Below are positions 8,694 through 64,000 of a stretch of DNA of 64,000 bases, piece after piece. Position numbers and translations under genes: made by a program. How positions within the stretch are numbered: position 1 is the first letter of the stretch; each line of letters opens with the position of its first letter. The stretch comes from Antedon mediterranea (taxonomy: Eukaryota; Echinodermata; Crinoidea; Comatulida; Antedonidae): positions 2,356,001 to 2,420,000 of the forward strand of contig NC_092679.1 in assembly GCF_964355755.1 (NCBI RefSeq), given 5' to 3'. The notes beneath the pieces were generated by a model that saw only the letters and a list, made by a program, of their open reading frames with translations, made no database searches and was not told the origin of the DNA.

Positions 8694-11600
8694 ATGGAAT
8701 CCAAACGACGCAAACAAACAACGCAACCTCAAAACAAGAAAACCAATGAACTAACAAGAAATTCAAAGACTGTCCCATCCTCACACGAAGTTGGTAAAAG
8801 AAAAGATGAAATTGCAGTGCTTCCTAGGCTGGAAGTAGGCTTCTATTGTCTGTTCATAGCAGTAATGATGTACATTGTTATGAATGAACTACACCAACAA
8901 TCAAAAGGTATATACAGTGAAAATGTTAACTTTATCTATCGGTGCATTGCCTGTGCATCTGTATTTAAAATACATAAAATAATCTATATTTAAAGAATTG
9001 AATGAATTTCTTTAAAACAAAATTTAACATAACATTTATTTTTGTTTAGCCTACTTCTTTAACTTGAAGAGATACAATTTTGAAGATGGTTGGTCAATTC
9101 TTGGCATATTAAAAAAAGTAGGTATAAATTTGTACTGTAATATAGGAACATGACCTATCATTCATTTTTACATGAGTGATGAGTACTATGACTAAATTTC
9201 CAGAAACATGTAATTTGTAATAACTCTTTAAATGGACCCACACACAAAAACATTAAAGATATAGTGTCCACTCTAAAAAAAAAAGATTTTTTACCTCCAC
9301 CAAGGAGGTATATGTAATCGATCGCGTGTGTTTGTTTGTCTGTTTGTTTGTTTGTTAGCAGGATTACTCAAAAAGTAAAATACAAGAAGAAGATTCAAAT
9401 TCACTTGTTTGATTTTCGCGTTGCTGTTCTATTGTTAGTCAACTGAAGCTATTTGTTAATTGAAAGGCTTGTTACATACCATTACTCCAAACTCGCATAC
9501 ACATGCTTGTAGTGAAATTAGCCAAAATCACAAACAGCATTAAGACACACACAAATATATATTTTTTCCCAGAGAAATTTTATGTAGGAGAATTTTACAG
9601 TAGGTAGAGGTATGCACTCTCAGCATTCTAGTTTTAAATGTTTTTGTTGAATATGCCATATTTTAATGTCACGAAACACTGGACTCTGGAACTGTGCCAT
9701 AACAGGTGTGAAAGAATCTCCGTGTGAAAGACCCTTTAACCAGGCTGACTTTCATGGTTGCTTGCAGTTATAATGCTAGGTGAAAGTGCTGTTTATTGGC
9801 ATTTTATATTCCTTTTAATCTGAAGGATATTTTAAAATCTGACACCGTATTGTTCTTCTTGCAGGATAGTTCTGATAAAGAGTGGAAGCATTTCATAAGT
9901 CTGTTTAATCCAGTCAACATGCTCGGTATTGCTGGTTATGTTGTACTATCTCACATCATGCAGCAGAATCTTCCTCAGGTAATACACATTCACATAGTCA
10001 CGATTCTTCAAAAAATAAATTGTTTAAAAAATAATGCATATTACTTTAGAAACATTAAAACAGGTCATTCCGTGTTATAAATGTACATTTATGGTTAATT
10101 ATGATAAAAAGAGAGAATTAATGCACTACCTAAGTAACCTAATATCAGTCTGCGCGCAATGTATTCAGGTATTTATAGCGGGCGGCTGAAATGATTAGAA
10201 TCGACTTATTTTTCACACGTTTAACGGTTTAGAGACAACAAAAAATATCGTATTTCTATATAAAAAGTAGTGTTTGAGCTTAAATTAGGTGGAATAAATG
10301 TAGGTCTAGTGTCTATAAATTGTTTTCACTTTTTCAGCATAAACAATGGAGTCTATTTGTATACAGTATAGTATGCTATCTTGTTGCCCTTAGCCTACCA
10401 ACTCTGCTTCTTATATGTGCACATGTCATCGCCATGTTCATCTTGGCAAAAACGCAGAGCGTGTATGTCATATGGGCTGGCGTCATCTTCCAGATTTCAA
10501 CATTGAATTATACATTTTTGATGTCTCCCATTGTAAGTATTGCGTCTGATTTGTCGTTTTTCTTTAAAGCTCTGTCTACTCTATAAACTAGTTTGACAAA
10601 AAAAGCTTGATGTGCCCAAATATGGTAGTGATATGCCCAAATATAATAGTGATATATGATGACATCATGTCCAAATTGGCTGAACTTGATTAGTTTTAAC
10701 TATTTTTTAGCCCTTCCTTTGATATAATTATTATTATTTGTATGTTACAATGTTTATAATTTATATTTATGGGTAAAAAAATGAAAATATAGGCACATTT
10801 TTGTCACATAAAGTTTGGTAGTGTAGGACAGAGCTTTTGGAGAATTATGTTGGTCTTTAAAAAAAAGTAATGGATGGGAAAAGCAGACCAATCGGAACCT
10901 TGTAAAATTTTCTATTTTTATTTTTTTCAGCTAAAGTACTTCAAAAGTGATGACTACTACATCATGGTTATTATTGTTGCCATGGCAAGTGTACGCAGTA
11001 TGAGTTTTGGACTTGAATATTGTAAGGAGTCTGCTCAAGCCAATCAGAAATACTCTTTCTTCAATTATCTTGTCTATTTGTTCTACTTACCAACATTTAT
11101 AACTGGTCCACTGATGTCGTATGAACAATTTTATCAGCAGGTACTAAATATAAATTTTGTTGTGTTTTTTGTAATATTACATCAACAACACCCAGGTCCA
11201 AGACCTGTCAAGTTGTTGGAGTTGTGGCTTAGTGTTTATGATGCTTGGCTACAAATCCCAGGGGCCTGGGTTCGAGTCCTGTCAGTGTAAGGATTTTTCT
11301 AATGACAAATTACAACTCCACTCCCAATAACTTTGTTTATGTAGAGCATCTTGTTTATATGTTTGTCTTGTGAATGGGATTGCCACCTTTAAGAAGGATA
11401 GTGAATGAATTCGCTTACGGTTATCCTTGGCAATTTGCCTTAATATATAAACAAAACAAACTACAATTGTCCTCTCCCTCGTTCCATTTACACGTCTTAT
11501 AATAGAAGTTGAATAGTGGCACTGTAGGATGGTCGTAAACATGTTTCCCTCCAATTTCACAGGCATAGGTTCAGTTAAATTTCATAGCAAAGAGCCCTAT

Positions 11601-14267
11601 TGAAACAAGCTCTTGAGTTTATAGGATTATCCTCATGCTCTCATCCTGTCATTTATATATATTTGTAATATTGTATGTGATGAATGAGCAACAAATAAAA
11701 AACAAACAAACAAGGCATATATTCAAGTCTCTATTCTTTTTCAGTACATTTCATCACCAGTGATCCACAGATACAGCAATATTTTAAAAGAGTTCTTCTA
11801 CTATATATTTTGGGCAGTATTTCTAGAACTGATTCTCCATTTTTTATACTTTTCTGCATTTCATAATGAACGATCTGTTTTAATGTCAATTTCACCGATG
11901 GCAGTTGGTAAGTATGAAACTCTTAGCTCTGTCTACACTATCAAACTAATTTGATAAAAAAAGTGTGATGTGCCTAAATATGGTAATGATATATGCCCAA
12001 ATATTGTAGTGATAATGCCATCATCATGTCCATCCTGTATATGGGCACATCACATTTGTTTGTCACATAAAGTTTGATAGTGTAGACAGAGCTTTACAAT
12101 TACACACATGTACTGTTTCTATTTACTGTAACACCATGTAAAAGAATTTATTTAGTTGCTAACTAATAAATAATAATAATATGTCATTCTTATATAGCGC
12201 TTCATGCAGATAACCTCTAAGCGCTTCACATTATTACCCCCGGTTATTTTTTGATCACACATGAATGGAAACGTACTCCCATAATGCAGTCTTAGTACAG
12301 TTGTGTTTTGACCTTACCAGGTACCCATTTGTGCACCTGGGTGGAGAGAGGCAAACGTAAGTTAAACTCTGTCTACACTATGAAACTTGTTTGACAAAAA
12401 AGTGTGTTGTTCCCAAATATGGTAGTGATATGCCCAAATATGATAGTGATATGACATCATGATGTCTATATACTGTATGTCTTGCCTAAGGATAGCTACT
12501 AACTCATATCTCCTTTTCATAAATAGGTGCATCAGCTTTGTGTCATCTGTACTTCTTTCAAATCAAGTATGTTGTAATTTACGGCCTTTCAAGAACTCTA
12601 GCTCTAGTTGACGGCGTTGAAGCACCCAAGCCGCCTAACTGTATAATGGCTATGTATCAATATAGCGATATGTGGAGGTAAATATTGTATTTATGCTTAG
12701 TTTTTTGGAGGAAGTGTAGAGGATTTATATAGGTAGGTAAAACAACTACAACAACAAATAGTCTAGGACCTGGGTAAGATATGTGCATTTAATTTAGGAG
12801 AGAATCCTGTTTGCAATCTGAAAATTAAAGGCTCAATTTCTGTGACGTAATCAGTCAGTTTATCATTTACCAAACCTCCAGTAGGATAACAATTTGTTTC
12901 TTTTAAAATATGTATTTTAGGTTTTAATAACTTATGCATAGTTGATTTTTTTTTCAGGTATTTTGATAGAGGACTTCATCATATACTTATGAAGTAAGAA
13001 AATATTTTAACACCTTTTTCACAAATCTGTTTTTTTTTCTTCAAGTTCTAACTTCCAATCTCATAACAAAGTTGCTACAATCTATTTCTTTTTTTAATTA
13101 GGTACATTTATTTTCCGTTTGGTGGTTCAAAACATGGTATCATACGTCAATTACTTGGTGCGTTTGTGTGTTTTCTATATGTGTGTTATTGGCATGGCTT
13201 CAACCGTAATTACTGCTATTGGGCGTTCTTTAATTGGATGGGCATAGTCTTTGAATCTGTTGTCATTATAGTTACGTCAACTGAGTCTTTTAATAACTTT
13301 ATGGTAAGAATAAATTAATTTAATATTCTTTTTTTCATAATATTACCATTTATGAATGAGCGAATATGTTCCCACCCCCTAATTTAGGCTAAAGAGTGAA
13401 AAGTATTTGATAATATATAAATTTACTGTTTATACAATCCTGATATAAAATAATTTTGTATCAGGCCCCCTCAGTCACATACAGTACCTGATTGTTTTGG
13501 GGTACTGCATATCTTTCCTGAAGAGATAAATAAAACATTGGAAAAACTAAACCTTTTTTGTTTTTGTAGGTATAATCCCATCTTCACCAAATTTTGAATC
13601 AGGCCCCTTGGTCACATATTGATATCTAATTTTGTTGATCTTTCTTTCAAATAGAAATAGAGAAAAATAAAACATTTGAAAATAAACTTTTCTTATTTTT
13701 GTAGAACTCTTTGTTTTCTCGTGCAATGCAGCGTCGCTTGAGTGCTTTTTGCTGGACGCCAATCTACGTTTGTCTAAGTTTATCAAACATTGTGTTTCTA
13801 GCAGGAACAAGGACTACTTATATCTATTTTGAGAGGCTTATATTAAGTGGTTAGTTTATTATTTATTTGTAATAAGTTACCCTTTTTTTTCTCTATCTTT
13901 GTAAAATATGGTTTGCACGGAAATCAAAATGTTGATATAAAGTTTGTGGTACACCACATGTGTATAGTTCTATAAAGACGTTTAGATCAATATATTTTGA
14001 TCATCATGTTTGTACCAAGCTGCAGCAGGGCTTAAGCTTATCACCATATTTGGGCATATTGTATTACTACCATATTTAGGCATATTGTATCACTACCATA
14101 TTTGGGCATATCACACTTTTTATATTATTTGTTTGCTTTTTTCAGATTTTCCTCGTAACTGCTGCTTTATGTGGCTTTTGTACTACATGACGATACAGCT
14201 CATTAAAGAATGCCACTTACAATTTGGCAAAAAGTATCTTTGTGAGAAAAACTACAGGATCGCATGA
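8694..14267 (+). CDS. HHAT: HHAT-A, protein-cysteine N-palmitoyltransferase (MBOAT family, 539 aa, 11 exons)
   Basis: HHAT is a multi-pass ER enzyme that attaches palmitate to the N-terminal cysteine of Hedgehog ligands. Coding exons are 8694-8907, 9050-9117, 9865-9978, 10338-10532, 10931-11140, 11745-11907, 12527-12677, 12958-12993, 13102-13303, 13705-13849 and 14146-14267 (stop TGA). All introns are GT-AG; the sum is 1620 nt, 540 codons. After a basic 40-residue leader, LPRLEVGFYCLF matches the start of HHAT. The MBOAT core reads DMWRYFDRGLHHIL, then KYIYFPFGGSKHG, then YVCYWHGF and AFFNWMGIVFES. Asp375 and His415 are 40 residues apart, as are the essential Asp339 and His379 of human HHAT, so the enzyme looks active. 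HHATL, the inactive relative, lacks that histidine. A second HHAT follows downstream. AATAAA at 14329-14334 is a likely poly(A) signal. The start is the first ATG after a stop-rich leader. Confidence 0.9.
9291..9610. repeat. dispersed repeat in HHAT-A intron 2
   Basis: Begins ACCTCCACCAAGGAGGTATA and continues with GTTTGTTTGTCTGTTTGTTT and GCAGGATTACTCAAAAAGT, a form I recognise as a widespread invertebrate interspersed repeat. No open frame. Class is not determinable from this copy. Confidence 0.5.
11211..11460 (+). repeat. tRNA-derived SINE in HHAT-A intron 5
   Basis: GTGGCTTAGTGTTTATGATG (A box) and CCTGGGTTCGAGTCCTG (B box) form a tRNA-like head. It is followed by a tail with ACAACTCCACTCCCAATAAC and GGTTATCCTTGGCAATTTGC. 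The same tail recurs at 23850-24010 in HHAT-B intron 5 and in part at 14440-14510, so this is a dispersed family. Confidence 0.65.
12182..12356. repeat. SINE-like repeat (AGCGCTTCA ... CACCTGGGTGGAGAGAGG)
   Basis: Contains TATAGCGCTTCATGCAGA, TAAGCGCTTCACATTATTAC and ends CACCTGGGTGGAGAGAGGCA, a repeat type common in marine invertebrate genomes. Related fragments with the (G)AGAGTAAAGTATCTTG element lie near 31430-31480 and 32280-32345. Confidence 0.5.
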
Positions 14268-15908: not shown

Positions 15909-16560
15909 TGTTATGCGCGATTTGAACGATTTGCGCAATTTGAAATTGCGCAAAAAAATCCTTGCGCAATTTGAAATTGCGCAAAGAATTCTTGCGCAAT
16001 TTAAAATTGCGCAAGGATTCTTTTGCGCAATTTCAAATTGCGCAATCAACTTGCGCAATTTCAAATTGCGCAAGAAAATCTTTGCGCAATTTTAAATTGC
16101 GCTGCACAATTTGTAAATTGCGCAAGATAGTTCTTGCGCAATATGACACCTTTGCGCAATTTGAAAACGAACTGTAAATAGTTCAAGATAGTTCTAGGCC
16201 TAGGCAGAGGAGTTTAAAATTTAGTATTTTATTATAAATAAATAAGACCATTTCAATGAAGATAATGTTTAATATTCACTTTTTAAGTTTTTACTCGGGG
16301 TACCCGAGTCTAGTACTTACTCATTTTCTCCTTCTCTTCCTCCATCTGGACACTATTGAGTAAAAAGTGCGATTTTTAAAGTACTACTCCTCCCTTATTC
16401 GTTATAGTATTGAGCTGGGATTTGGCATGAACATACTACAGGGACATGTCCTCAAAGCTATAGAGCCGGATTTTTAATTTTTTGTTAATTAATTTGTTTA
16501 ATTAAGAAGCCACAATGTGTGACACACACCACAGCGTTATGTAGTTATATGGTTATATGC

Positions 16561-16632
16561 GGATTCTTGGCGTAGTGGTTATCACGTTTGCTTAACACGC
16601 AGAAGGTACCTGGTTCGAGCCCGGACGAAACC
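16561..16632 (+). tRNA. tRNA-Val(AAC)-like, probably degenerate
   Basis: TAGTGGTTATCACG (A-box region), anticodon loop TTAACAC giving AAC, and GGTTCGAGC (B box) match metazoan tRNA-Val. The acceptor stem GGATTCT against CGAAACC has two mismatches, and the D stem one. A run of T directly follows and would stop RNA polymerase III. Its position inside an inverted-repeat element and the mismatches suggest a pseudogene. Confidence 0.6.
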
Positions 16633-16846
16633 TTTTTTTTTTTAAATTTATGGTGAAAAGTACTGTATACGCAATATGATAATTATACAGAGTATATCTT
16701 ATTTTTATTATTTTTTAAAATACTTATTTTGTGTAATCGGTAATTATCACTTTTACACACGTTTATTTTGCTTTGTGCTTATTACCATTTATTTGTAATT
16801 TAAATGGATTAAAAAACTTTCTGTAACCCACATTTTTAATGTAAGA

Positions 16847-16917
16847 GGTTTCGTAGTGTAGTGGTTGTCAAGTCTGCTTAACACGCAGAAGGTCCCGGTT
16901 CGAGCCCTGGCGAAACC
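16847..16917 (+). tRNA. tRNA-Val(AAC)
   Basis: Acceptor stem GGTTTCG pairs perfectly with CGAAACC. The anticodon stem TCTGC/GCAGA is perfect with loop TTAACAC (anticodon AAC), and the T loop is TTCGAGC. The T stem has one C-T mismatch and the D stem one weak pair, so function is plausible but not certain. It lies 215 bp downstream of the similar, more damaged copy. Confidence 0.65.
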
Positions 16918-17410
16918 TATTTTCTTTACTTTCTAACTGTATACGTCTGTATACAGCTTCTTTCGCTGTACCCCGAGTATTGCACATTCGTGCTTGTTAA
17001 TATTAGTTTAAGCTAGGCCATGTAACCTAGTCAGTATCAGTAGTCCAGACCCTAGCTAGGCTAGAGTAGTATAGCCGGCCGCCCGCGCCGCGCCCGCCTG
17101 GTGGAACACCACCGCTTCGTTTTCCTTCGTCGGTTCTTCGACGGTATGCTAACTTATAACAATATTTGCACTACTAAAATAAGGAAATGCGATATTTATC
17201 TTTAATTTTGAATCATTCTTAGAAATTACTATAAAAATATGGGTGTGCATGATTTCACAATCTGTCGAAAAACCTTGCGCAATTTGCAGATTACTTGCGC
17301 AATTTAATACGTTGCTTGCGCAATTTGAAACACATGTTTCAATTCAAATTGCGCAAGGATTTTTTTTGCGCAATTTCAAATTGCGCAAATCGTTCAAATC
17401 GCGCATAACA

Positions 17411-17602: not shown

Positions 17603-19289
17603 TGTTATGCGCGATTTGAACGATTTGCGCAATTTAAAATTGTGCAAAGAATTCCTTGCGCAATTTGAATTGAAACATCTGTTTCAAATTGCGCAAGCAA
17701 CGTATTAAATTGCGCAAGTAATCTGCAAATTGCGCAAGGTTTTTTTCGACAGATTGTGAAATCATGCACACCCATATTTTTATAGTAATTTCTAAGAATG
17801 ATTCAAAATTAAAGATAATATCGCATTTCCTTATTTTTTGTAGTAGTGAAAATATTGTTATTGTTAGCATACCGTCGAAGACCCGACAAAGGACCACAAA
17901 GGTGGTGTTCCCGGCGGGCACGTGCACGGCGGGCGGCTAATACTACTCTAGCCTACTACTACCAAAGAATATATATCACAAGAATGAGTATTCCGCGATT
18001 TTTGCATGAGAAATTTGTAACAGAGAGCTCCAGTGAGTGATGCCCGCCCTCATAAGGGCGGATGTATACATACTAAATAAGACTTGATTTAATAGATATT
18101 ATACATGTCACATTAAATAGAATTATGATAATAGTTTTTGCAATTGTAAACTATTTTATAATACATATTTATTAACAAACTAGTGTACATTCACTTTTAC
18201 AGACAATTATTTACTAACATGCTAAGTTAGTTCACAAAAAAGGCCTAACACAGCAACACCAAAATCAACGAATCGTTACTCAGCACGGCCTATTCTTTAC
18301 CATTGCCGTGTACTACTCTACGCCCGGTAAATTAAGTATTGTTTTTATGATATAAATTAGTATAAAATACATGTTATTAATAGGACAAAATGTTAAATGT
18401 CATTAACATTTATTTGTTTTACCAGAAACAAGTTAAATATAGGAATATTATTAAACTATCCTTCGTGAAAACGCGTAAACAGCAACACGCCCGGTCATGC
18501 TATCGTAGCGCCCGGTTGATAAAGCAAACTGTTTATACGGCAGTTTTTACTAAATAAATTGCATAAAACGAACAATTAAATATCCAAATAGTATTTAACA
18601 TGATGTTGGCATGTAGTTGATAACATTTTTTATCATGAAAATACTACCGGTGGTCCAGCCTTTGATTAGTGAAACCGTTACAAAAAGTTGTATACATCCC
18701 AGATACATCCACACTTATGGCGGCGCCCTACCACATGGACAATATTACTGTTACAGGGAAAATCGCGGATTACTCATTCTTGTGATATATATTCTTTGCT
18801 ACTAATGGCTATGTTTTGATAGCAAGTCTAAACGTTGTTGGCGGTAGACTATGTTATGTATTACTACATTAATTTATTTTATTTTTACATTTATTTTGAT
18901 TTATTTTAAGTTACAATGAGTGATAATATTATTTAATTGTGTATGCCATTTATGTTGTGTATTATACACATGTTATCTTCGCATTTATTATGTTTCATTT
19001 TGAGTTATTAGTTTCGAATAAATTATTATTATTGTTAACCGATCGTCGACGTTAGCACGCATTCTGGTAGAAATCTGCTGCGCAATTTGACAATTTTACA
19101 AATTGTGCAGCGCAATTTGAAATTGCCCAAGGATTTTCTTGCGCAATTTGATATTGCGCAATTTAATATTGCGCAAAGAATTCTTGCGCAATTTGAAATT
19201 GCGCAAGAATTCTTTGCGCAATTTCAAATTGCGCAAGAAATTTTTTGCGCAATTTCAAATTGCGCAAATCGTTCAAATCGCGCATAACA
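17603..19289. mobile_element. large inverted-repeat element 2 with GCGCAATTT palindrome arrays
   Basis: Starts TGTTATGCGCGATTTGAACG and ends CGTTCAAATCGCGCATAACA, with a direct TTAC on each side (17599-17602 and 19290-19293) as a candidate 4-bp target-site duplication. The right array (19080-19275) is the inverted match of the left array of element 1, including the GCTGCACAATTTGTAAA variant. The left 340 bp is the inverted match of the right part of element 1. The middle, 17950-19075, holds a CCGCCCTCATAAGGGCGG hairpin at 18043-18062 and no convincing frame. Confidence 0.75.
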
Positions 19290-19474: not shown

Positions 19475-22400
19475 ATGCCATCCAGAAGGTACAAAAAGAT
19501 CTCAGAGAGTGAAGCTGACATCCAAGATGCATCTGGTGTTGTCTCCAGAAAGGAAGACCCTAGTATAGCCAGGCTTCCTAGACTTGAGATATTAGTCTAT
19601 ACCGTTGTAGCTGTTATATGTTTTATATGTTATCCAATGTACAATGTTTATAAAGAAAGTCAAGGTAGGTATTTCGATATTTAGTGGTAGAATGACAAGG
19701 GTGGTTTTGGTGACAAGGAAGTTGGGGTTCAATGAATTAATTGCTTAAGATATTTCTTTAAAGATTAACCTTCTAACAGTAGATCAATGGCAAACATAAT
19801 ATTAAAATGCTCCAAGAAATAGTCCATTCTAAACTGCTCACATATTTGAAATATAAATGTAGTTATAATTCTTATTAATCTGATTTTAAACCATCTAAAT
19901 ACTCAAATCCCTGACGCAAAACTACAATTACAATCCTGTTGGTGCAGTACCCGCTGCTCACTTGGGCTCGAATCTAACCACTAGCCATCAGCGCAAGCTT
20001 GGTGGTCTCGAGGTATGAACGCCAGGCTAGTGATCTGGAGGTCATGGGTTCGAGTTCCACCCAGAACTACCTGCAAATTTTTTCGCAAGTATTCTCAAAT
20101 GTACTTACAAAAGAGTAGGGCAAAATATCTAATTAATTAATCTGATTTTTAATCATCTTTTTAGCATCTGCATTTAGATTTTATGGTGTTCTGGCTGATG
20201 GATATAACCTATTTGGTGGTTTGAAGGTACTGTATATAAAGTATTTGTCACCAAAAAAGGCTTTTAAAATAAAAATAACATTTTTACAGTTTCGTAGCCA
20301 CGAGAATTAAAGTGGTGCAGTTGTCGCAATAAATGTCTTTGCGTGCCTACAGGATTGTCAAAGGCGTATGTCAAAAAGTGGTTGAACCTTACTGTACCAA
20401 CCGTACTGTACCAACCGTACTGTACCAACCGTACTGTACCAACCGTACTGTACCAACCGTACTGTACCAACCGTACTGTACCAACCGTACTGTACCAACC
20501 GTACTGTACCAACCGTACTGTACCAACCGTACTGTACCAACCGTACTGTACCAACCGTACTGTACCAACCGTACTGTACCAACCGTACTGTACCAACCGT
20601 ACTGTACCAACCGTACTGTACCAACCGTACTGTACCAACCGTACTGTACCAACCGTACTGTACCAACCGTACTGTACCAACCGTACTGTACCAACCGTAC
20701 TGTACCAACCGTACTGTACCAACCGTACTGTACCAACCGTACTGTACCAACCGTACTGTACCAACCGTACTGTACCAACCTTACTGTACCAACCGTACTG
20801 TACCAACCGTACTGGTGGCTACGTCCCTCTTTTAGTCTAATTGTTCTTCATTTCACTTGTTTACTACAGAACATTTGTTTTTACAGGATGAGGGAGACTT
20901 CGAGTGGAACTTCTGGAGGGAACTTGTAACTGTACAAGCTGGTGTTATAGTATTTGTTTACATAGCAGTTGGACGGCTGGCAGAGACATTTTGTCCGGAG
21001 GTAATCAATTATTAAATTATTAATGCAAATATTAAAAGTGTTTTTTTATTTTTTATTTTATTCAATTTTCAGGCACAAAAATACATAACAAGAAAGCGGT
21101 GCAGCACCCTGAGGATTGCCATGAGTGCAAAGCACTATCGAGATGGCTCTCCATATACTGAACTTGAACATATAAACAATAAAAATACAATCATATAAAA
21201 ATTTAAAAATTGCGAAGCATCAAATTGAACAATCATTAAAATTGAATCTAAAAATATATATATATAAATATTATGTACAGATAAAAATGATTGTTTAAAG
21301 AGAAAAAAATAATAAAAAAGTTGCCTGACATAAGACCGGAGAGCTAGTGTCACAAATGTGTTAAAACTAAATAAAGAATGTTCTCTAATATAATTAGGAA
21401 TCTCCATACACGGGGAAAATTAGAATTGGTTCTGGCATATTTGTGTTTAAAAATAACTGATTCAGAATATCTTGGATTAAAATCAACAAAATCATGAATA
21501 TTAGGATCAATTTGACCATATAAACATTTCATAATAAAAGTATACCGTTGTCCCAAAGCTGGTTTTGGCTTAGATCATAAAGTAATTTTTTGAAATAATT
21601 TTCAAAAATATATTGATTTTAAATTCAGTTTCTCTGAGCAAAAACAAGACTTGATTAAACAATTTATAGAAAATGATTTCCCTTATTTGTTTTAGTGGCG
21701 GAATACTTTGCTGCTTGTGCTGTCATTGTCATCGGTCACGTTGCTGGCAACCTGGCGCTGTATGCTGGTGCTACTCTTAAATGCCGCTTTTATGTACTTT
21801 GCCTCCTTCAGCAAGAGGGCGCTAGTTGTCTGGGTTGCCGCACTTCTTCAACTATACTCCATTACAAATTCTTTTTTAATATTTTACTTGGTAAGTTTGA
21901 ACTTTCTGTATTATTTATAATTACTGCAGAAAACCAGGATAGTTATTGCAGTATCTAATAACAATTGAAGTTATTTCACCAAATGGCATTTAAAGATGTA
22001 CTGCAAAAACATGAAAAATGAAGATTAATTAAATCAGACTTTTAATAAAAAAATTATTTCACTTAAAAAAGGCAAAAGAAACAGTTAATTTTAACCAAAA
22101 ACCATTATCTGACAGACAATTTAAATATTTTTGATTTAAATTACATTTTTTTTAGGTAAAAAAATTATTTTTTTGGATCCAGTTTTTGGTAAAAGTGAAT
22201 AACTATTATGTGACAATAAAATGGCATATTCAACAAAAAAACCCTTAATATCTGAAGCAATGCATAATATAACAACAAATTTTGCTGCATTATAGTAATA
22301 TTACTGCAACAAACACCAACAAATTACTGCAGCAAACACCAGACATAATTTCTTAATCAGCAAAGAGCCTTGTAGAAGGATAAGCCGTTTTGTTTTTATA

Positions 22401-43719: not shown

Positions 43720-44045
43720 TTCTGTACATCAAAACAGTTCAAAAAGTACAGAAAAACGCAAAGTGATACCCGACCGACAGACCGACCGACATAGTTAAAA
43801 CTTGTCTGTACATCAAAACAGTTCAAAAAGTACAGAAAAGCGATAAAACGCATAGTGATACCGGACAGACCGACAGACCGACCGACATAGTGAATTATAG
43901 AGTCGCGTCCACCCACGCGACTAATTGTCTCTACATCAAAACAGTTCAAAAAGTACAGAAAAGCGATAAAACGCAAAGTGATACCGGACCGACAGACAGA
44001 CCGACCGACATAGTGAACTATAGAGTCGCGTCCACGCGACTAAAA
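43720..44045 (-). repeat. 120-bp repeat with GTCGGTCTGTC tract, three copies
   Basis: Three partial copies with CATCAAAACAGTTCAAAAAG, ACGCAAAGTGATACC, GACCGACAGACCGACCGACA and a palindromic GTCGCGTCCACGCGAC end. The same family, in the opposite orientation, is at 53460-53580 and 54125-54240 inside a KCNH intron. Confidence 0.75.
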
Positions 44046-52500: not shown

Positions 52501-55500
52501 TGCAACAATATCTTCATCTTGGATAACTTCCAGCGTGCCAGAAACAACAAAGTACAATATATCAATACTTTCACCAGTGTGTATCAGCAGATCACCGGGG
52601 GCACTGTGGTTCATGGTAAAGTTGATGGCTAACGCGCGCAGACAACCTTCACTGGCCAATCGGAAGGCAGGATGGCCACTGAAAACTGTCCGATTCAAAT
52701 GCACGCATAGATCGGCTTTCATGTCTTTCGGGCAAAACTCGAGAATCTACGAAAACAATTATAGTAGAATTAAGGTGTTGATTGATTGATTGATTTATTT
52801 GTTTAACATATTTATACAAGATTACACAATTAGGTAAAAGAAAATCTGATTTGCATTGTGGTCCTGTCTTAAATATAAAAAATCAGGATTTTGTGAAATG
52901 ATATATTATTGTAATCAATTGTATTGAAAAGACTGGATCATTTTCTGGTCATTAATGTCATGATGACGAAGCCAACTTACCCTTTTCGAATCGGTTCCCT
53001 TCGTGATCGACCAAGTGGACACCGTATAGTCAATAACCCGCTCACTCAGAGCCTTGTCAACCTGATGTAATTTCATGAACTCTCGCACGTTTTTCAAATT
53101 CTCATGATACCGAACAGTTGCTGATGTAAATTGTTGAAAAATCGTGGTAACTGTTCCGAAGATAGTGGCATATAATAGCGCTAAAAAAACACAGAAATAT
53201 ATTTAACATTTTTATTTATTTATTTTTTTATTTCATCAAAACCAACAGCAACGAAAGTTGCCACTTAAAGGTATGAAACAGATACAATAAATACTCTATT
53301 TATAAAGTAAACTTAAATAAATATGTAAATATGTATGAGTTGGTATACTATATTACGTTTACTGTTAGACAGAATACTTTCTAGGAAAAAGTAATGTAGG
53401 CCTAATTAAGTAAATGTAGAACTGTATATTATGTAGCCTAGGTGGTTTTTTTTGTGTTTTTAGTCGCGTGGAAGCGACTCTATAGTTCACTATGTCGGTC
53501 GGTCGGTCTGTCTGTCTGTCTGTCTGTCGGTCTGTCTGTCTGTCTGTCGGTCCGGTATCACTATGCGTTTTATCGCTTTATGACCTTATCTTGATATCAG
53601 TTTAATCTAGCTAAGTCAATTTTTCAAAGAATATTTCTTATGGCCAGGAATCGATGTGGTTATGTTTTCACGGTGCGCAATAAAAAATTACGCGGTCTAC
53701 GCACGATTTAACGAAATCACGTTTGTAATCATATCTTAACAACCATGAATCACAATTAAATAAAATTTGGTACTCATAAATTTCAGGGCATAAATCATCA
53801 TATGGCAATACAATTACGTGCGTAGCGCATGTAACGCATGCGTACGCGCGCTTAAAATTTTCAAAATTTATTTGCGATGAAATAAGAGTACGTTTCAGGA
53901 AATTTTAAGCGTTTACAAAATTGCCATGAGTGCGCAGATTTTTGCGCGCGCACTGCGCGTTAAATGTTATTGCGCACTCTTTTTGCCCGATTTCTGTTTT
54001 CTTGACTTACTTTTCAACTCGAAATTACGTTATACGAGCACGTCAAAAGTGACAGGCTACGCACGTGTAAATTAAAAAAATATTGTTTTTAAACATTTCA
54101 ACATTTTTAAACATGTTCAGTAATTTCGGTCAGTATAGTTCACTATGTCGGTCGGTCCGTCTGTCTGTCGGTCTGTCTGTCTGTCTGTCGGTCTGTTTGT
54201 CTGTCGGTCCGGTATCACTATGCATTGTAGCACGCGACTTAATGGCTGTTGGCCTTGTTTTTTTGCAGTTCAGAATACTTGGGGGTATTTCGCGTCATAT
54301 CATTGAATATCTTAGTATTTTTACATAGTTGCAACGCAATGACGTAGGCGCGTAACGCAAGAGAGTTGACCAATCACAAGCGACAGTTCGGATGATTGGT
54401 CAAGTGGTGGAAAGCAAGCTTTTCTATGCGTCTGTAGTTTAGTTTATCTATGTCTCTTTACAGAAGAATAGCTAGTTTCAACGCAGATGTAAACGTAGGG
54501 AATTACATATGATGTTAAGCTATTCCAAAAACACAATAGAGAGAACAAAAAGCTCTCAGAATTTTAATTGGCATGTAAAAATGTGTTATAAGAAATTTAA
54601 CTAGAAAACGCATAAAAGAAAATGAGACATATATTGTCAGACGATGATGAGATATTAAAAAGGCAGTTGGTGTATTCAATAAGTCCAACAAATTAGACAC
54701 GAACGGCTACAGCTGCGCGTAGGCGTATATTGATTCACGAACAACACAATCCCACTAACTTTCTAACAAAAGCCCGTGAGAAAGATTTGCGAATTTGCGA
54801 GGTGTTTGTAGGTGCACTCCGTCTTAATATCGTTCTAATGGCCTCGAGAACTATACGCGGATAAAGGTTAGACTTTTATTTACCTTTCTTCCAACGGTCA
54901 CGTGACTATTGTTGCCACTCGTGCAATATTCTTTCTTTCCGGTGTGGCAAGCTTGTAAATTTGGGAAAAGATCTGATTAAAGCCCGCATGTGACTGTTGT
55001 TGGAAAGCGCGTGCAACAGTCAAGTTGTACCAAACTGTCTCGGTTATGTTCGGCTCGGTTTCGGCATGATAAGACGCAGTGCGTCCGAATTTCCTCATAT
55101 AGTTCGTTTGCCCAACGCGGTCGTACCGTCGTCATCTTTTTGTACAAATCTGCGTCGGTTGCTCTGAACGTAACGTACGGATCTACTTCGAAACAAAAGC
55201 TTCCGGCCAGTATTTGTGACAATTCAACAACTAATATATTGTTTAAAATATTACTATTTTTCATGTATACACAATTAGACGCCTCTCTTAAATTTAATTT
55301 TTTTCAAATTGTTTTGATTGGATTAATAATACTGTACTTCTCTTGAATTCATTGACTTATATTTCGTCTGTTTTTTACATAATGGTTTAGAATTTACAAA
55401 TTTGTAGTACTGTTAGACACTATAGGAGACACCTACACTATGGCCTATACCTATTCTTGGAACACTACGTTCGGTCCCGAAGGTGTTCTCTTAATATATG

Positions 55501-58500
55501 AATGCTACTGCATATGCCAGTATCTTTATCGATTGTTTAGCTTATTTCACAATTCATTGTTCAATTTGCAGGCTTCAGATGTAGGTCGGCCGAAATACAT
55601 AAATGCTCATTTTTAGAATGAAAACATCTTTTATTGGTCAGTTTCATAAGTAAATGGAAAATTCAATTTCCACTTGAAAGAACATCAGAAAATTGAAAAT
55701 GGTGTTTTTATAGCTGGTTGTAATATATCGAGTATGTAGGTGAAAACCTTAATTCTTTCTAGATTTATAAATACGAAGCTTTTAATAACACATGATAGAG
55801 TCACGTAAAGATAATTCCACAAGTTGGCTCAACAAAGCAGCTTTAAGTTCTCTGTGGTGTTAAGAATATTATTACGAGATTTGCTTTTAGACATTCTAAA
55901 TAGCATGCGTTTTCATTGTTGTCGAAATCATAATATATAATAACAATAATCATATGTATATAATAGCGATTTATATAGAAATGACATTAATAAACAAAGA
56001 AAGAAATATAAACATATATTTAAACAATACGGTAGATTTTCAACAACACGACATAGATACAATGGTTCCGCGTAACTTAGCTCACAGTGGATTGGCTCAC
56101 AGCGGATATATTCCCATAAATTAATCGTATGATAAAATTAAATGCCTTCTCCTAGATTCGGACCTGCGACCTCTCTCTGACAATATTAATAGTATCACTC
56201 GAAGGTTCAGTAATAGACTCTAAGTCTGATTACTATCCAATAATGTTTGATATTTTATTGATTTTACCATTTTCTATTTAAACAATCATAATATCCCGGA
56301 TTTAAATCGGTATCCCGGGTTACCAACGCAGAGAAGCGCGTGTACTTTCAAATTACTGAGATTAGTATGCATATTCAAGGTTTTGTATACTTTGAAATAT
56401 GTAAATTGATTGATGGAAATCGCGATTGAAGTCAATAGCAGCTTTTTAACGGATTGAAAGCAAATCTACTTCGTTACTGTGTTAATGCAGACTTTCAGTT
56501 CGTCTGGGTAAAATAAAAAAAAAACGCCTTTCACATGCGCAGTACAGATTTTTGTATTGTGTTTGTTATTTACAGTGAAACCCTATTCAATTCAATTCAA
56601 TTTATTCAGCAATATATATTAAGTGGGTAGTTTAAGAATCCTACACTAGAGCATTACATTAGAGGTAGCACGCGCCCTGAATACTATACGGATTGGCTCA
56701 ATTATAACTATTATTTCCCCTTCGTTCGTGTCACAGGAGATTGCCCCTTAATATCGGTGTCCCATTAATATTGGTGTCCCTTAATATCGGTGTCCCCTAA
56801 TATCGGTGTTCCCTTAATATCGGTGTCCCCTTAATATCGGTTTTCCCTTAATATCGGTGTCCCCTAAATATCGGTGTTCCCTTAATATCAGGGCCCCCTT
56901 TATATCGGTGTTCCCTTAATATCGATGTCCCCTTAATATCAATGTCCCCTTAATATCGGTGTCCATCGATGTTCCCTTAATATCGGTGTCCCCTGAATCG
57001 GGTGTCCCAGAAGAGAGGTTCTTTTTTATTCAATCTTTAACTGAAAGGAAAATTAATTAGCAGATAGTTTTGTAAAATGTTAGAAACAAATAAAAAAGGA
57101 AAACAAATCAGAGATGAAGAATATTGGTAATTTAATATTAGAAAGAAACAATACTTACATCCAACGATCATCATTATAATTGTAAATAATTTTTCCGCAG
57201 CAGTTGTAGCAAAAATATTTCCAAATCCTACCGAAGTGAGACTGCTAAGCGTATAATATAAAGATGAGACATAAGCCATCCCTATCGTAGGTGCTACTAG
57301 GTTCTGGTTCTGGTCTTCAGTCAGCTCAATGTTCAGGTCAGTCGTGAGCTTGTGAAGCCAGGCTGCGGTATTGTTCCTTTCTTTGAACCCGATGGTGAAC
57401 CAAAGGCAGGCAAACCAGTGCCCGATAAGTGTAAATGATAACATAAGGAGTATAAGTAAGGCTGTGCCGTATTCTATGTAGTGGTCCAGTTTGCGTATGA
57501 CTCGACCGAGTCTCAAAAGTCTCACCACTTTTAGGGCACTAAAAATGTTACTGATATTCTGAAAAAGAATAAAGATTGACGTTATTATGGCATGTAGTTT
57601 TTATACGCAGTTTTACGTTAATCATTTTCATTAATTCCTCGTATAAAATTCATTTATAATTTGTTAATAAAGTTGAAAGTGCTAATCTGGTAGCCGTGGG
57701 TCCGTGGAGGGCCTAATCTAATTTTCCTCAGCTTCCAGTTAAGCTTGAGGATCAAGAAAAATACATTTAACATTTTAACACAACTTCGACGCGCGCGATT
57801 GATTCCGTGTTACGCGCGAGTCTACTTTGTGATGCAACACCCAAAGAAGATTTTATTTTGCATAAATTGTAAACAAAAGCAAATTTATAATTGAATTAAT
57901 AAAAATCAATTTATAATTGAATTAATAAAAATCAATTTATAATTGTATTAATAAAATCAAATTTATAATTGAATTAATTATAGCATATGTATATTTTATT
58001 ATTTTGGATTAGAACAGCGCCATCAGCATTCGTAGTGCAGCCTGACGCGCCGCAGACAATATTCATTAAAACATCCGCGTGTTGATTAATTATCTATCAA
58101 TGAATAATTTATTTAATATGATGTATGAATAGTTACTTTAAGAATAATCGATGTTATTAATTTAAGACAAGTTGCTGTTGATATTTGATATTTAAACTTT
58201 GAAAAGAATGATTATCGTCGCCAAAAGCATTCAACTTTGACCTTTATGAAGTAAAGTGTTAGTGAATCTCAGCATCGACTGAAGACAATTTTTTAATTCA
58301 ATGCAGTATTCAATTATTTTGATCATCGTCATTATCCTTTCGTCATTGATATCATACCAATTACTATCGTCATGATTGGCGAAGTTTTGGTAAATTTAAC
58401 CTTTGACCTTATGTTAACCTCCTATAACCCTCGATTTTAATTGATATTAATTATCACCTAAATGCGTATTAGTAATATTGTCAACATTTTGTTAAATTTG

Positions 58501-61500
58501 ACCTTTGACCTTATGTTACCTTCAACCTCCAATAATCCTCGATTAATATTTATTATCACGTGTAAACGTGTATTATTAACATTGTCAACATTTTGTTAAA
58601 TGTGACCTTATGTTAATGATAACCTCCAAGATCAAATTGTAATTAAGACCGTCTGTGAATTGTATTGAGTCAAGAAAGCAAGTAAAAGCATTATTAAGAT
58701 TATCCGCAAGGTGATATCGACCGGTTGCTAAGGAAACACAGCTTTGGTCAGCATTAACAAATGTGTTATTTGGAATTTCAAATGTAGTTCAGTTGTTACA
58801 GTATAGTATAATTACATGAATTTACAGGATCGTGTGTTCTTTAGTATAGTCAGTGCTAGACGAAAGTTTACACACTAACACGTTTGTGTCGCCCGATTCT
58901 CAGTTCTGTAGGCCTATCTCCACACAATTTGTATCAGTTTATCATAGGAGCAAATTCAATAATGCAGCATCTGTGATGCCTGTATCATAGGGTTAGATTA
59001 AGGGTTAGACTTTGCATATGTGTTTTACATGTGATGCTGTATAACGGAATCTGTCTATAATAGTCGCTATCCAATCGAGTTTGAACAATACCATGAAATG
59101 AAGTGGTCTAATGGTTAGGGCAACTGCATATCAAGCAGACGGTCCGAGTTCGAGTCTCGGTTGGAGCGACTTTTTCTCATTCTCACAGATTTCCTCATCT
59201 TTATCGTTTAAAATTAATTAATTAAATTTCAGTATATCACCGGGCGGTTTAGAATTAATGTTCTTTGCCTGATTTGTTTATATAAATAAATATAGATACA
59301 GTACCAAAAATCTCATTTTGTAGACAAATTATCCCGCATGAAGTTATCAGAGATACTAATACTAAAAGACGACGCATTTCATTGGTTTCCGTTTGATACT
59401 AATTTCTACTAACCAACCCACCCGTTTGACATTCAATCTAAAGGGCGAGCGCAACCAGTGGGAGTAATATATCAAAATCAATTGTAGTTTTTGTTTAATA
59501 AACGATATTTTTCTGACAGGAGTCCCAGCAGTTTATTAGTTAGGGTCAATCATAACAATATTCACGCAATATTTTATGACTGTGTGACAATCTCCCACGT
59601 TTAAGCCTTGGGTCTTATATTATACAGTGGCTGCTAAATTGTCACTCTTCATTTGAAACCAAAATATTACCCATAACCACAATTACTACCCATAACCACG
59701 TAACCTTTTCAAAGCCCGCTGGGATACAATCATTACTGTTTACATAATGGCAATTAAGTAGATGAATGTGTACTTTGTTTTTAACAAGAATTGCAAAAGT
59801 GAGTTGTCATAACTGCGGGGTATACATTTCGAATGTTTTTGTCTCTTCGGACGACTGATGGCAGCCGATTAAGGAAAGAGCACCTCGAGACATTACAAAA
59901 AGCGCGGGAACAAAATTATCGCCTCACTTCGTTTACGCCAATTTACAATTTTATCAAATTCGACAACTATAGATGGGATAATATGTCAGATTTTCGGTAC
60001 TGTTTTTCTTCCGTAAAAATGACAATGATTCATGACTTGCTGAACCTTAACATTTTAATCGTGGTGGTTATAGGGAGAAAGGCTATACCTAAACGTAAAT
60101 ATACGTAAGATAATAATGCTATGGTATTGTATAGCCGATTATCTACTGTAGCGATTTTTAAAAACCCCTGTACTATATAATTTGTATAGTATCATAGGAA
60201 AATTCATTTGACGACTGTACCATAGGCCTAGCCTTGCCCCAAGTCTGTATTTATTGACTTTTTTTATGTTAGTCCACCAGTCGACGTTTCGAGTTTTGTC
60301 TGAAAATACAAGCTCAAATAGTATACGTATGAAACGCAATATGCGCCAAAGTATTATATTTTTACTAATATTAAGTCAAAACTCCATCTGGAACCCAGAC
60401 TACGAAACGCCTAACTAAATTGTACTTAACATACAGGCGTTGAGTAAAACCCATCTTCACGCCATCAATACATAACTGACGTGCGTACACTACCGATATA
60501 TTGCCAGCAATACGGTATCAGATTTGTATTCCTTTTATTTATTTTTTTTTTCTCTCTCTCTCTCTCTTGTGGTTTACCACCACTTAATTAATTCTTAGAT
60601 ATTTTCTTACATGATAATAAAATCCCGTAAATTCTCTACTTTTTTCGTAATTTTTTGTTTTCTCATTGTCTTACTTTTTTAGACTTTAGTTGGTGCGATA
60701 ATGTGATATTATGTTACTAATGACGTCATTTGCTATGTGTTCTTAATGTGTAAGGCTACATCGGATATTGCCAATCAATATATTCATCAAGTAATATCTA
60801 GCTTTAGTTTAGTTCTATACCCATCCCTTTAATTGATCCGTGCAACTTCAATAGATCATATACTTTGTGATAATTAGTAATCAATCAATTTATAATCAAC
60901 TTACTGAATCTTCAAACGCGTTGATGACGTCATACGGTAGACATGACAACAGGTCAATGATAAACCACGATTTCAAATAGTTCATACGAATAATCTTTGG
61001 ATCGGAAACAACCTCACCACCAGGGCCGACAAAAGTTGTATGAAAGTTTAATATAACATCTATGAAAAACACTATATCGACAATACCATCTATGACTAAC
61101 ACGACGTATTCCCCCGTGGACTTGGACTGAAAGGCGACATTTAAAGGCACTGCAACGGCGGTGTAAAACGTTAGAACTAGTATTATCCAGTCCCATATAG
61201 TTTTGAATGTACAGTAGTGTAAAATGATGTGTGGCGGTGTTTTAGGCGCTTCCAGTCTGTATTGTGGTAAAATATCGGCGTCCATATTCATCATCTTGAA
61301 TATAGGAAAGAAAATGAAATTATATGAATTAATATAAATAATAAATTGAAATAAAAATGATTATCATCCTCATCAGAATCATAAAAATCGTCATCACATT
61401 CACCACGAATTATTATCAAAATCAAACTCATCAACATAATTATTAACATAAATATTAACAACATCATACTCATACATCATCATTATCATCATCTTTATCA

Positions 61501-64000
61501 TTTTCATCATCGGCGTCGTCATCATCATCATCAACATCATCATCATCATCATTATCACCATCATTATCATTATCACCATCATTATTATCAACATCGTATC
61601 ATCATCAATATCATCATCATCATCATCATCATCATCATATTGATCATCATTTTCATTATCCTCATCATCCTCATCAATCGTCGTCGTCATCATCATTATC
61701 ATCAACAACAACATCATCGCCATTATCGTTATCATCATTCATCATCATTAATTGATGCAATTTTATTTTTTAATGTACATAACCTAAATTACGACAATAA
61801 ATGTTTTTGTCAATTCCAAAACTCGTTTAAAATTCAAATTGTTACTATATATAATTGATGTAATTAAACATATTTTACATTAACCTATCTACAGAACGCC
61901 CTCTGGCCACTAGTATTCATTTATGCAAACGGGACTTCGATTTGTTTGATTATTGCCTCAATATTTTAGCGTATACGATCCTCGTATCAACTTACATTTT
62001 GAATTGAAGAACGGAAATAATATAACTACAATTTCTCATTTTTATTTTTCATAAAATTGAAAACAAATACGAAAGATTTTGTGAATTCAAAAGTATCACT
62101 TTTTTAACGCCACAGATTTAATTTCAATATATCAATTGAAATTAAATCGTATAATAAGTATTCATACACCGGCACCTACGTCATAGTCACGTCATCACTA
62201 TTACCAACAAAACAACCACTACCATTACAACAAACTGTTACCGGGTTTACTACAGCATGCGATTGTACCACAATGGAACACTTTGCACCAAACCGAACCT
62301 ATCACCGATTAACAGCCACTGACACTGCGTGTCATCTTCGACAACCACTGGCCACAAGCAATTGACAACCAATATACCACAACGCAACCATTTTATACCA
62401 CAACCACTGGGTATCATTCACACTATCACCATGCAAATACTACCATAATATACTACACTATCAAACTTTATGTGACAAAAACATGTGATGTATCCATATA
62501 TATAAACATGATGATGTCATATCACTACCATATTTGTGCACATCACCACCTTTTTTGTGCACATCACACCTTTTTTTGTCAAACTAGTTTGATAGTGTGG
62601 ACAGAGCTTAACGTATTGTAACATGTGCTATACGTACGTGTGATATCTGAGTGATTTGAGCCTTGTTTACCACATCAACCTTTGGCAAATGTTGTGATAC
62701 TTGATTGAGAACAGATCGGCTTCGAGTTACACTTCTAGCTAACCGGGCAAACCGCCCCATTCCCGCTAAAAAAAAAGAAAAAAAAAATGTTTACGTCATA
62801 GATTTATATAATACCTGTTTTTTTTCTTATGTGCTGCAATAGGCGAAAATTCGAAATAAAAGCAAATTGAATTGAATATAGGCCTAGGCTCTCAAAAGAC
62901 AATTATACATGATTTGTTCGTAGTTAAAATAAGTCTCGTAAATAAAGTTTATAATAAATATAAAAGAAAAAGATTATCCAAAAAATACTGAAATAAAAGT
63001 AAGCTATACCATACTTTGGAAGATATGCAAATTTGTGAAACTTTATTATGAATATTCAATAGGTAGTTTTTTTTTAAGATTTGCGCCCTCTATCAAAGCT
63101 AAAACTTTTTTGACAGTTCTCAGGCGACCAAAAATTCAATACGTTAAAGCGTCAATATTTGAGGTTTTTACTTATTAATGGTTAGCATTATATTAATATA
63201 TCTAGCATTATGGAATCTTTCTTTCCTTTATGATGTTTCTTCGAAAGCTCTATCTACACTATCAACTATGTGACAAAACAAATGTGATGTGCCCATATAT
63301 GGACACAATGACGTTATATCACTATACCATATTTGAGTACATCACACGTTTTTTTTTGTCAAACTAGTTTGATAGTGTGGACAGAGCTTAAGGCCGTTTG
63401 ATGTCCTCACCAAGGCTTAGGGTTATTGTGAGTAATACAAACAATACATTCTTTATTGATGTTTTATAATGTAGTTTTTTAATACAGTAATAATATAATA
63501 TAGATTTTTTAAACAATATATAGTGAGTTATCAATGTCATACAGCTCCATGCTATTGCAACACATATCTCATAGAAAAAAAAAGAATATATTATGGTGAA
63601 CTATAAATACATCGTGTACCCTGTTACCTTTAAAAAGTAATTGCTTTGAATGTCAGACAGTTTTGAAATACATGATATCATCAGCAATATATGCATCATT
63701 ATAAACTAATTACCATAGCAACGAATTTAATGATTTTGATATTTTCGATTAATTTTGTTTGTTCATTGCGATAAAAAACGATCGCTCTGAATATAGTCTG
63801 CGATTAAACATCTTTATTTGCGCAGTAACAACAAAAATGTAAAAACGATAACGTAATATCTTTAATACAATATCTAAAAGATAAAATATCGATTTACTTA
63901 TAACAATTTAATAGCAATTGCTTTTTAATATACACGCGCAGAACAACGCTACTACCGGTATTTGACAATTTGGTGCATATATTACCTGCGCAATTAAGGT
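49555..64000 (-). CDS. KCNH1: EAG-type voltage-gated potassium channel (KCNH1/KCNH5 group), partial at 5' end
   Basis: EAG channels are plasma-membrane tetramers that open on depolarisation. Minus-strand exons: a probable exon end at 64000-63986, then 62765-62638, 61294-60905, 57558-57159, 53180-52981, 52746-52494, 51580-51384 and 50580-49555. All are GT-AG and in phase, giving about 863 codons. In order: [19 protein letters not shown] linker; [20 protein letters not shown] and S1-S3 ([54 protein letters not shown]); S4 [21 protein letters not shown]5; filter SVGFGN; S6 [18 protein letters not shown]-linker; the cyclic-nucleotide-binding-homology domain ([29 protein letters not shown]) with the intrinsic-ligand-type LTYNL; then a proline-rich tail and a tetramerising coiled coil ([20 protein letters not shown]) preceded by KTESGDSGI as in KCNH1. 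The PAS domain exons are off the window. KCNH1 and KCNH5 are vertebrate co-orthologues, so the symbol is approximate. Confidence 0.93.
52200..52302. repeat. CA-rich microsatellite
   Basis: ACACACAC runs alternating with two AGATCAACAG blocks, in the KCNH intron between the two exons of the nucleotide-binding-homology domain, just before a family 2 element at 52331-52465. Confidence 0.8.
53460..54240 (+). repeat. repeat pair with (GTCG/GTCT)n tracts in a KCNH intron
   Basis: Two blocks, 53460-53580 and 54125-54240, each with CACTATGTCGGTCGGTC, TCTGTCTGTCTG and GGTCCGGTATCACTATGC. The first starts with the palindrome TAGTCGCGTGGAAGCGACT. The sequence between them (53580-54120) has many GCGC steps (GCGCGCACTGCGCG) and may be the body of the same element. 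Confidence 0.65.
56573..57023. mobile_element. pogo/Tigger-like terminal-repeat element turned into a 16-17 bp minisatellite
   Basis: Begins CAGTGAAACCC and ends CAGAAGAGAGGTTC, whose complement GAACCTCTCTTCTG resembles pogo/Tigger-type ends. Between 56738 and 57005 lie about 16 copies of CCCCTTAATATCGGTGT, with CCCTTAATATCGGTGTTC variants. No transposase frame. Confidence 0.55.
57885..57985. repeat. 28-bp AT-rich tandem repeat
   Basis: Four copies of AATTTATAATTGAATTAATA plus AAAATC, in the KCNH intron between the S4-S6 exon and the S1-S3 exon. Confidence 0.8.
58385..58632. repeat. about 120-bp tandem repeat, 2.5 copies
   Basis: TTTGACCTTATGTTA, AATCCTCGATT, TTATCAC and ATTGTCAACATTTTGTTAAA recur in the same order twice, with a partial third. 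Located in the same KCNH intron. Confidence 0.7.
59062..59225 (+). repeat. tRNA-derived SINE copy
   Basis: AGTCGCT at 59062 can pair with AGCGACT at 59165-59171. Between them are GTGGTCTAATGGTTAGGG (A box), CTGCATATCAAGCAG (anticodon-like arm) and GAGTTCGAGTCTCGG (B box). The tail TCTCATTCTCACAGATTTCC matches the copy at 3677-3835. About 30 extra bases sit between the 5' stem and the A box in both copies, so this is a family feature. Confidence 0.65.
61430..61745. repeat. ATC trinucleotide repeat region
   Basis: About 300 bp of interrupted ATC/ATT repeats (for example ATCATCATCATCATCATC near 61611) just upstream, on the minus strand, of the KCNH exon 61294-60905. It creates artificial open frames rich in Met/Asp or His. 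It is intronic. Confidence 0.85.
62766..63985. other. KCNH intron at the right edge
   Basis: Holds a poly-pyrimidine acceptor (minus strand TTTTTTTTTAG) for exon 62765-62638 and a family 1 element at 63244-63390. Beyond that it shows no exon-like sequence until GCGCAG|GTAATA at 63986 on the minus strand, whose phase fits the next exon. Confidence 0.5.

Follow-up and report, generated by a model that had tools for sequence, protein, structure and literature searches.

Groups of neighbouring genes that have been retained side by side for very long periods, often beside developmental regulators, were reportedly described as ancient metazoan microsynteny by Irimia and colleagues in 2012. The locus considered here, in the crinoid Antedon mediterranea, contains two genes for HHAT (Hedgehog acyltransferase, which modifies Hedgehog) and one gene for a channel of the EAG (KCNH1/5) type, and its closest described counterparts are two vertebrate gene arrangements. 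First, the order SERTAD4-HHAT-KCNH1-RCOR3-TRAF5 has been given for shark, mouse and human, and the order kcnh1a-hhat for zebrafish; the channel tree of the same article includes invertebrate channels, and the portions of it available to us do not give invertebrate gene order (PMC13398235). Second, as far as the accessible text of the source goes, human MEIS1 lies in a gene desert that extends over about 1.5 Mb from SPRED2 to ETAA1 and has been retained since the common ancestor of teleosts and human (PMC3308983), and one cluster of ultraconserved elements, in the corresponding part of another report, lists C1D, ETAA1, MEIS1, PNO1, PPP3R1, SPRED2 and WDR92 (PMC3436827). In the open-licence literature, no account of metazoan microsynteny naming HHAT was found, HHAT did not appear in what matched on the synteny of MEIS, ETAA1, KCNH and FBXO28, and KCNH1 was named in none of the 20 articles listed, out of 61, on ancient microsynteny and its cis-regulatory constraints; we do not claim that either the pair or the larger block discussed below is unreported.

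Here, we analyzed a window of 64,000 nucleotides (G000:C10:2356001-2420000) in a genome of 354 Mb and 18 contigs, in which contig C10 accounts for 25.04 of 354.43 Mb (7.1%). All positions follow the numbering of the window, so that negative positions lie left of its start and positions above 64000 lie right of its edge. The sequence read around the locus, by open reading frames (ORFs), motifs and exon-by-exon inspection of splice sites, amounted to 332 kb including the window; this was the animal genome searched or compared by sequence, and vertebrate gene order was taken from the literature. The recognized order was GALNT2-like (plus strand), FBXO28-like (plus), ETAA1-like (minus), HHAT1 (plus), HHAT2 (plus), EAG (minus) and MEIS (minus). 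HHAT2 and EAG were arranged tail-to-tail, 12.2 kb apart and without a recognizable gene between them, an orientation that we take to be also that of human HHAT and KCNH1. A preliminary description of the sequence, whose start (8694) is the ATG of HHAT1 and whose end (64000) is a mere window edge, had proposed this convergent order, and both the strands and a scan of the 12.2-kb interval bore it out. The likeness to vertebrates that it also proposed agrees with the order SERTAD4-HHAT-KCNH1-RCOR3-TRAF5 and with kcnh1a-hhat in zebrafish, within the portions of the source mentioned above (PMC13398235). Provided that the placement of this genome among echinoderms holds, the HHAT-KCNH adjacency extends from vertebrates to Ambulacraria, and the comparison of this genome with vertebrates makes it very probable that the adjacency was inherited by common descent.

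Both HHAT genes could be read as complete spliced models of 11 exons on the plus strand, from ATG to stop. HHAT1 (8694-14267) encodes 539 residues in exons 8694-8907, 9050-9117, 9865-9978, 10338-10532, 10931-11140, 11745-11907, 12527-12677, 12958-12993, 13102-13303, 13705-13849 and 14146-14267. HHAT2 (19475-37310, stop included) encodes 530 residues in exons 19475-19664, 20165-20226, 20887-21000, 21696-21890, 22972-23184, 24658-24829, 25531-25681, 27317-27352, 32523-32721, 35421-35565 and 37195-37310. The introns were of the GT-AG type in 19 of 20 cases, with GC-AG in the remaining one (HHAT2 intron 6). Against PDB, each copy matched HHAT chains only at E <= 0.001 (three of three distinct sequences in both cases), the best match being human HHAT (E 6.3e-61 for HHAT1 and 2e-62 for HHAT2), and the Pfam family MBOAT scored 83.3 and 87.8 bits, respectively (cut-off 27). 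By these PDB matches, both copies appeared closest to HHAT and not to other MBOAT enzymes, as the preliminary description had supposed, and the modification of Hedgehog may be predicted for both of them. A genome search with HHAT2 placed all 14 matches at E <= 0.001 inside the window, and the MBOAT family search gave seven matches (two in the window and five elsewhere).

Where the alignment includes human HHAT, 173 of 465 residues were identical between the two copies; over the same columns, for which the human stretch is the portion in the PDB alignment without the C-terminal end, identity to human HHAT was 129/465 for HHAT1 and 136/465 for HHAT2. All 10 intron phases were identical and in the same order in the two genes. 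Counterparts of human Asp339, His379 and Cys324 were retained by alignment in both copies: Asp339 corresponds to HHAT1 Asp375 (codon 12965-12967, aligned to 7mhy_A) and HHAT2 Asp369 (27324-27326), and His379 to HHAT1 His415 (13193-13195, likewise aligned to 7mhy_A) and HHAT2 His409 (32614-32616). We take Asp339 and His379 of human HHAT to be catalytic, and the importance of Cys324 is presumed in the same way. Because of these identities, together with the shared intron phases and the retained residues, the tandem duplication is, on the evidence of the two coding sequences, old, and it probably took place after the divergence from vertebrates. Both copies look like intact genes and not like pseudogenes.

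Several further features were observed in and between the HHAT genes. The donor of HHAT2 intron 6, at 24830, was the only GC found in all introns of HHAT and EAG that were read. A tandem array of the 14-bp unit AACCGTACTGTACC, with about 31 copies at 99% match (20385-20814), takes up 430 bases of HHAT2 intron 2, which is 660 bases long. Between the two copies, arrays of a palindrome-like unit beginning TTGCGCAATTT are present at 15931-16123 and 19110-19269, and more of this unit was suggested at about 17.2-17.7 kb by ORF translations. Two tRNA-Val genes were also predicted there (16561-16633 and 16846-16919), one of them also above the Rfam threshold; they are possibly related to short interspersed nuclear elements (SINEs).

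The EAG gene comprises 10 exons on the minus strand, extending from 92.5 to 49.6 kb, and its introns are large (about 26 kb for intron 1). The spliced model within the window (49555-62765) has seven exons: 62765-62638, 61294-60905, 57558-57159, 53180-52981, 52746-52494, 51580-51384 and 50580-49555, the last one with the stop. Of the 5' exons past the window edge, two lie 1.5-2.2 kb beyond it (65664-65536 and 66181-65951), and exon 1 (92453-92375) was located by a motif, with a matching phase. The layout typical of EAG channels, that is, an N-terminal PAS domain, a six-helix pore domain and a C-terminal cyclic-nucleotide-binding-like domain, was spanned end to end, as query residues 1-683 could be aligned to residues 26-717 of KCNH5. 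Among the best 60 of 138 matching PDB sequences, the 870-residue query scored 982 bits with KCNH5, 961 with KCNH1 and 519 with KCNH2. Over 480 columns, identity was 306/473 with KCNH5 and 306/471 with KCNH1, compared with 211/468, 178/428 and 159/347 for other KCNH-like loci of the same genome on contigs C1, C8 and C2. In an unrooted tree of six sequences over these columns, aligned on the window channel as anchor and containing no named ERG, ELK or HCN sequence, EAG grouped with KCNH1 and KCNH5 apart from the three other loci with support of 100/100 under both LG and JTT, and KCNH1 and KCNH5 paired together within that group. Because of these identities and this tree, the gene is, at the level of the aligned protein, the pro-orthologue of KCNH1 and KCNH5, and the EAG/KCNH1 type assigned in the preliminary description is upheld.

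A genome search with 480 EAG residues gave 28 exon-level matches, of which five were the EAG gene itself and 23 lay elsewhere (on C1, C2, C5, C7, C8 and C11) with at most 54% identity. The C1 locus was ERG-like, with 214.7 bits to KCNH2 versus 135.0 to KCNH1. As far as the searches reach, this genome thus has a single locus for HHAT and a single gene of the EAG type, since the HHAT2 matches were all in the window and the other channel loci fell outside the EAG group. The Pfam family Ion_trans_N was tried as a counter of EAG genes and proved useless for the count: it gave two matches, on C11 and C1, neither of which was the EAG gene. We take this family to be of the HCN type. Two observations on channel sequences may be added: a marginal tRNA match, possibly SINE-related, lies inside an EAG intron (59102-59162), and a channel-like match with 29% identity to EAG on the minus strand of C5 (5510212-5511351) has an unbroken frame of 637 residues and may be an intronless channel gene.

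The interval between the coding 3' ends of HHAT2 and EAG (37311-49554) contains several tandem repeats, of which those at 42611-42877 and 43802-44035 are the longest. No coding-like ORF was found in it except one within a 39-bp tandem repeat, and its longest ORF (126 residues) was not exceptional when compared with 50 single-base shuffles, in which the longest ORF averaged 103.5 residues and reached at most 133. No RNA family reached the Rfam threshold in the interval, the two Rfam tRNA matches of the window being outside it.

On the right side, the next recognized gene was MEIS, which lies on the minus strand with its 3' end towards the HHAT-EAG pair. The Meis_PKNOX_N domain (cut-off 27) scored 79.6 bits near 214 kb and 35.9 bits near 205 kb, and a Homeobox_KN piece was found near 160 kb (45.4 bits; cut-off 24), all on the minus strand; the latter piece scored 50.8 bits with Meis1/Meis2 and 36.1 with PKNOX1. 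The MEIS identity is secure on these domain matches. Pieces near 222 kb and at 144-146 kb are presumed to be the ends of MEIS by their resemblance to MEIS sequence, and those tested had no match in Pfam. About 50 kb from the EAG 5' end to the MEIS 3' pieces contained no recognized gene. Past MEIS, two coding-like pieces on the minus strand (228327-229317), one with a LURAP match below cut-off, presumably resemble FAM89. Still further right, 167 kb from the edge of the window, a piece of a phosphagen kinase (231323-231493) had its best PDB match in the arginine kinase 3ju5_A (90.9 bits), which we take to be from sea cucumber, and scored lower with creatine kinase M (79.6 bits).

On the left side, the tentative ETAA1-like gene (4603-7908, minus strand) consists of open frames at 7908-7756, 7414-7196, 6535-6398, 6224-5346 and 4758-4603, with exon limits partly worked out. 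The 3' part of the FBXO28-like gene (199-1460, plus strand) is represented by the open frames 199-495 and 999-1460, and additional pieces precede the window start at about -1.1 and -0.6 kb; its F-box match was under the Pfam cut-off, and the gene is presumed to be FBXO28 by its resemblance to the human sequence. GALNT2-like pieces lie at about -61 to -28 kb on the plus strand: one tested piece scored 91.5 bits with GALNT2 and 40.5 with the next match, GALNT1, and another had Glycos_transf_2 above cut-off. Further to the left, the open frame at about -67.8 to -63.7 kb (C10, about 2288.2-2292.3 kb) is long and resembles the polyprotein of a retroelement.

The content of the whole contig was also considered. 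All 15 matches to B56 (PPP2R5) lay on C10, about 13 Mb from the pair, and the single match to REST_helical (CoREST) was on C10 as well. We assume that the human B56/PPP2R5 and CoREST families reside at 1q32, 14q23, 14q32 and 11q13, and that the human GALNT2 relatives reside at 1q42, 2p23 and 14q24. Because B56 and CoREST matches occur on C10, set against these assumed human positions, the data fit the view that C10 corresponds, in unduplicated form, to a group of regions that are paralogous to one another in vertebrates. The 15 B56 matches fall within about 113 kb on one strand (C10:15493880-15606359), as if there were two tandem B56 genes. Elsewhere in the genome, 150 exon-level matches to the sialyltransferase family GT29 were spread over many contigs and densely clustered on C1, C5, C7 and C9 among others, which amounts to a large expansion, and the innexin family search gave two matches. 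Given how these families are distributed among phyla, this profile and the arginine kinase match right of MEIS point to an invertebrate deuterostome, the condition set in the preliminary description, and probably to an echinoderm. No match to COX1, and hence no mitochondrial contig, was found; none of 60 scored candidates out of 131,623 matched mir-2, and GFP gave no match in a search whose controls were equally silent.

On the basis of these results, we suggest that the common ancestor with vertebrates would have had HHAT and a single, pre-duplication EAG gene tail-to-tail, and that the tandem duplication of HHAT would have occurred later, in the lineage of the genome examined here. The pair would have belonged to a block of four genes in the order MEIS - KCNH - HHAT - ETAA1, and FBXO28, GALNT2/14/16, RCOR and PPP2R5 would have resided on the same ancestral chromosome. 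Within this block, the pair may have been situated in the long-range regulatory territory of MEIS, downstream of that gene as far as ETAA1, with HHAT and EAG as passengers, and breaks would then have been selected against because the pair lay inside this territory. After genome duplication, complementary losses in vertebrates would have left MEIS1 with ETAA1 (presumably at human 2p14) and HHAT with KCNH1 (presumably at human 1q32). These parts of the proposal differ in strength. The chances that the four-gene block was ancestral and underwent complementary loss in vertebrates appear evenly balanced. That the MEIS1-ETAA1 desert and the HHAT-KCNH1 pair are the complementary halves of one deuterostome block, still joined here, is a tentative idea that falls just short of an even chance. 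Retention of the pair through MEIS regulation is the mechanism that we favour, at a chance that is somewhat lower still. Taken as a whole, inherited deuterostome gene order with a larger MEIS block and retention in MEIS territory seems to us the best explanation, and one we lean towards by a little.

It should be noted that a number of observations weigh against this proposal. Only one non-vertebrate genome was compared, and the adjacency could have had another history. The gene left of HHAT1 was named ETAA1 from its motifs, an assignment that is likely and not confirmed, and no Pfam family was found in it. The second homeodomain piece, near 168 kb on the minus strand, hardly discriminated between Meis2 (33.4 bits) and PKNOX1 (33.3 bits), and two coding-like ORFs on the same strand (139276-139563 and 140711-140791), the first without any Pfam or PDB match, are located on the stretch from EAG to the MEIS homeodomain. 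No SPRED was recognized in about 30 kb beyond MEIS, where the search was an ORF and motif scan only. The REST_helical match is 16.6 Mb from EAG, the next recognized gene on the 5' side of EAG being MEIS and not RCOR. An ELM2 domain is likewise present in CoREST, and the only match to ELM2 was on C3. As to the channel, a position outside the KCNH1/5 clade, which the preliminary description had raised as the contrary outcome, is not what the bit scores and the 480-column tree gave; a tree of the pore only (about 130 columns) did not group EAG with KCNH1/5, with an inner-branch support of 55. The MEIS regulatory territory over HHAT and EAG is itself putative. The weak point of this idea is that retention driven by MEIS fails to explain the adjacency of HHAT and KCNH1 in vertebrates, where MEIS is absent from their side.

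The most serious rival, which we nevertheless regard as unlikely, is a slow decay of gene order, in which the ancestral pair would have been retained without selection in slowly rearranging lineages. Genes of the same paralogy regions are present on C10 and yet distant from the pair (CoREST by 16.6 Mb and B56 by 13 Mb), and because of these distances it may be that content was kept at the level of the chromosome while local order decayed, with some pairs surviving by chance. The two lineages separated more than 500 million years ago. The survival of a tight tail-to-tail pair in both of them would seem unlikely for a random pair.

Shared regulation, with elements in the 12-kb interval or in the KCNH introns selecting for adjacency of HHAT and KCNH, appears distinctly improbable. 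The adjacency kept both in vertebrates and here would suit such sharing, as would the large channel introns with about 26 kb in intron 1; the interval, however, showed tandem repeats as its only feature, and none of the RNA families reached threshold there. Shared long-range control had been the interpretation offered by the preliminary description, and it is the part that found no support, the MEIS and ETAA1-like flanks providing a competing reason for retention, whereas what it said of the gene identities, of the convergent arrangement and of the resemblance to vertebrates stood. Independent adjacency by chance in this lineage and in vertebrates could be entertained because the comparison spans just two lineages, and is nonetheless very improbable, as immediate tail-to-tail neighbourhood of a given pair would have a probability of about 2e-5 (25,000 genes assumed), or about 3e-4 if the same chromosome is given (about 1,770 genes assumed), and the ETAA1-like and MEIS neighbours strengthen the match.

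Gene pairs that persist over such long times may be under regulatory constraint. If the MEIS1-ETAA1 desert and the HHAT-KCNH1 pair are indeed halves of one block, HHAT and KCNH would have been passengers in the MEIS territory, and the vertebrate MEIS1 desert would in part be the place where they were lost. The four-gene block, if true, would offer a concrete and checkable case in which genome duplication led to a gene desert and an orphan gene pair on separate chromosomes. The adjacency of HHAT and KCNH1 would by itself be poor evidence for shared control, which calls for caution.

Compared with the known systems, the locus has both common and distinct features. On the human strands as we assume them, HHAT and KCNH1 are likewise tail-to-tail, and MEIS1 likewise turns its 3' side towards ETAA1, as MEIS does towards the ETAA1-like gene here. 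As in the vertebrate synteny, to the extent that the source is accessible, HHAT adjoins a KCNH1/5-type gene; in contrast, HHAT is a tandem pair here, its left neighbour is ETAA1-like instead of SERTAD4, and the next recognized gene on the 5' side of EAG is MEIS instead of RCOR3 (PMC13398235). With the vertebrate MEIS1 desert, again as far as the available text describes it, the locus shares a region next to MEIS (about 50 kb here, from the EAG 5' end) that lacks a recognized gene, whereas here the stretch from MEIS to the ETAA1-like gene is occupied by HHAT1, HHAT2 and EAG, and SPRED was not recognized by the ORF and motif scan of about 30 kb past MEIS (PMC3308983). Finally, like the blocks of ancient metazoan microsynteny, the neighbouring genes of this locus appear to have been kept together for a very long time, and they are located beside a developmental regulator.

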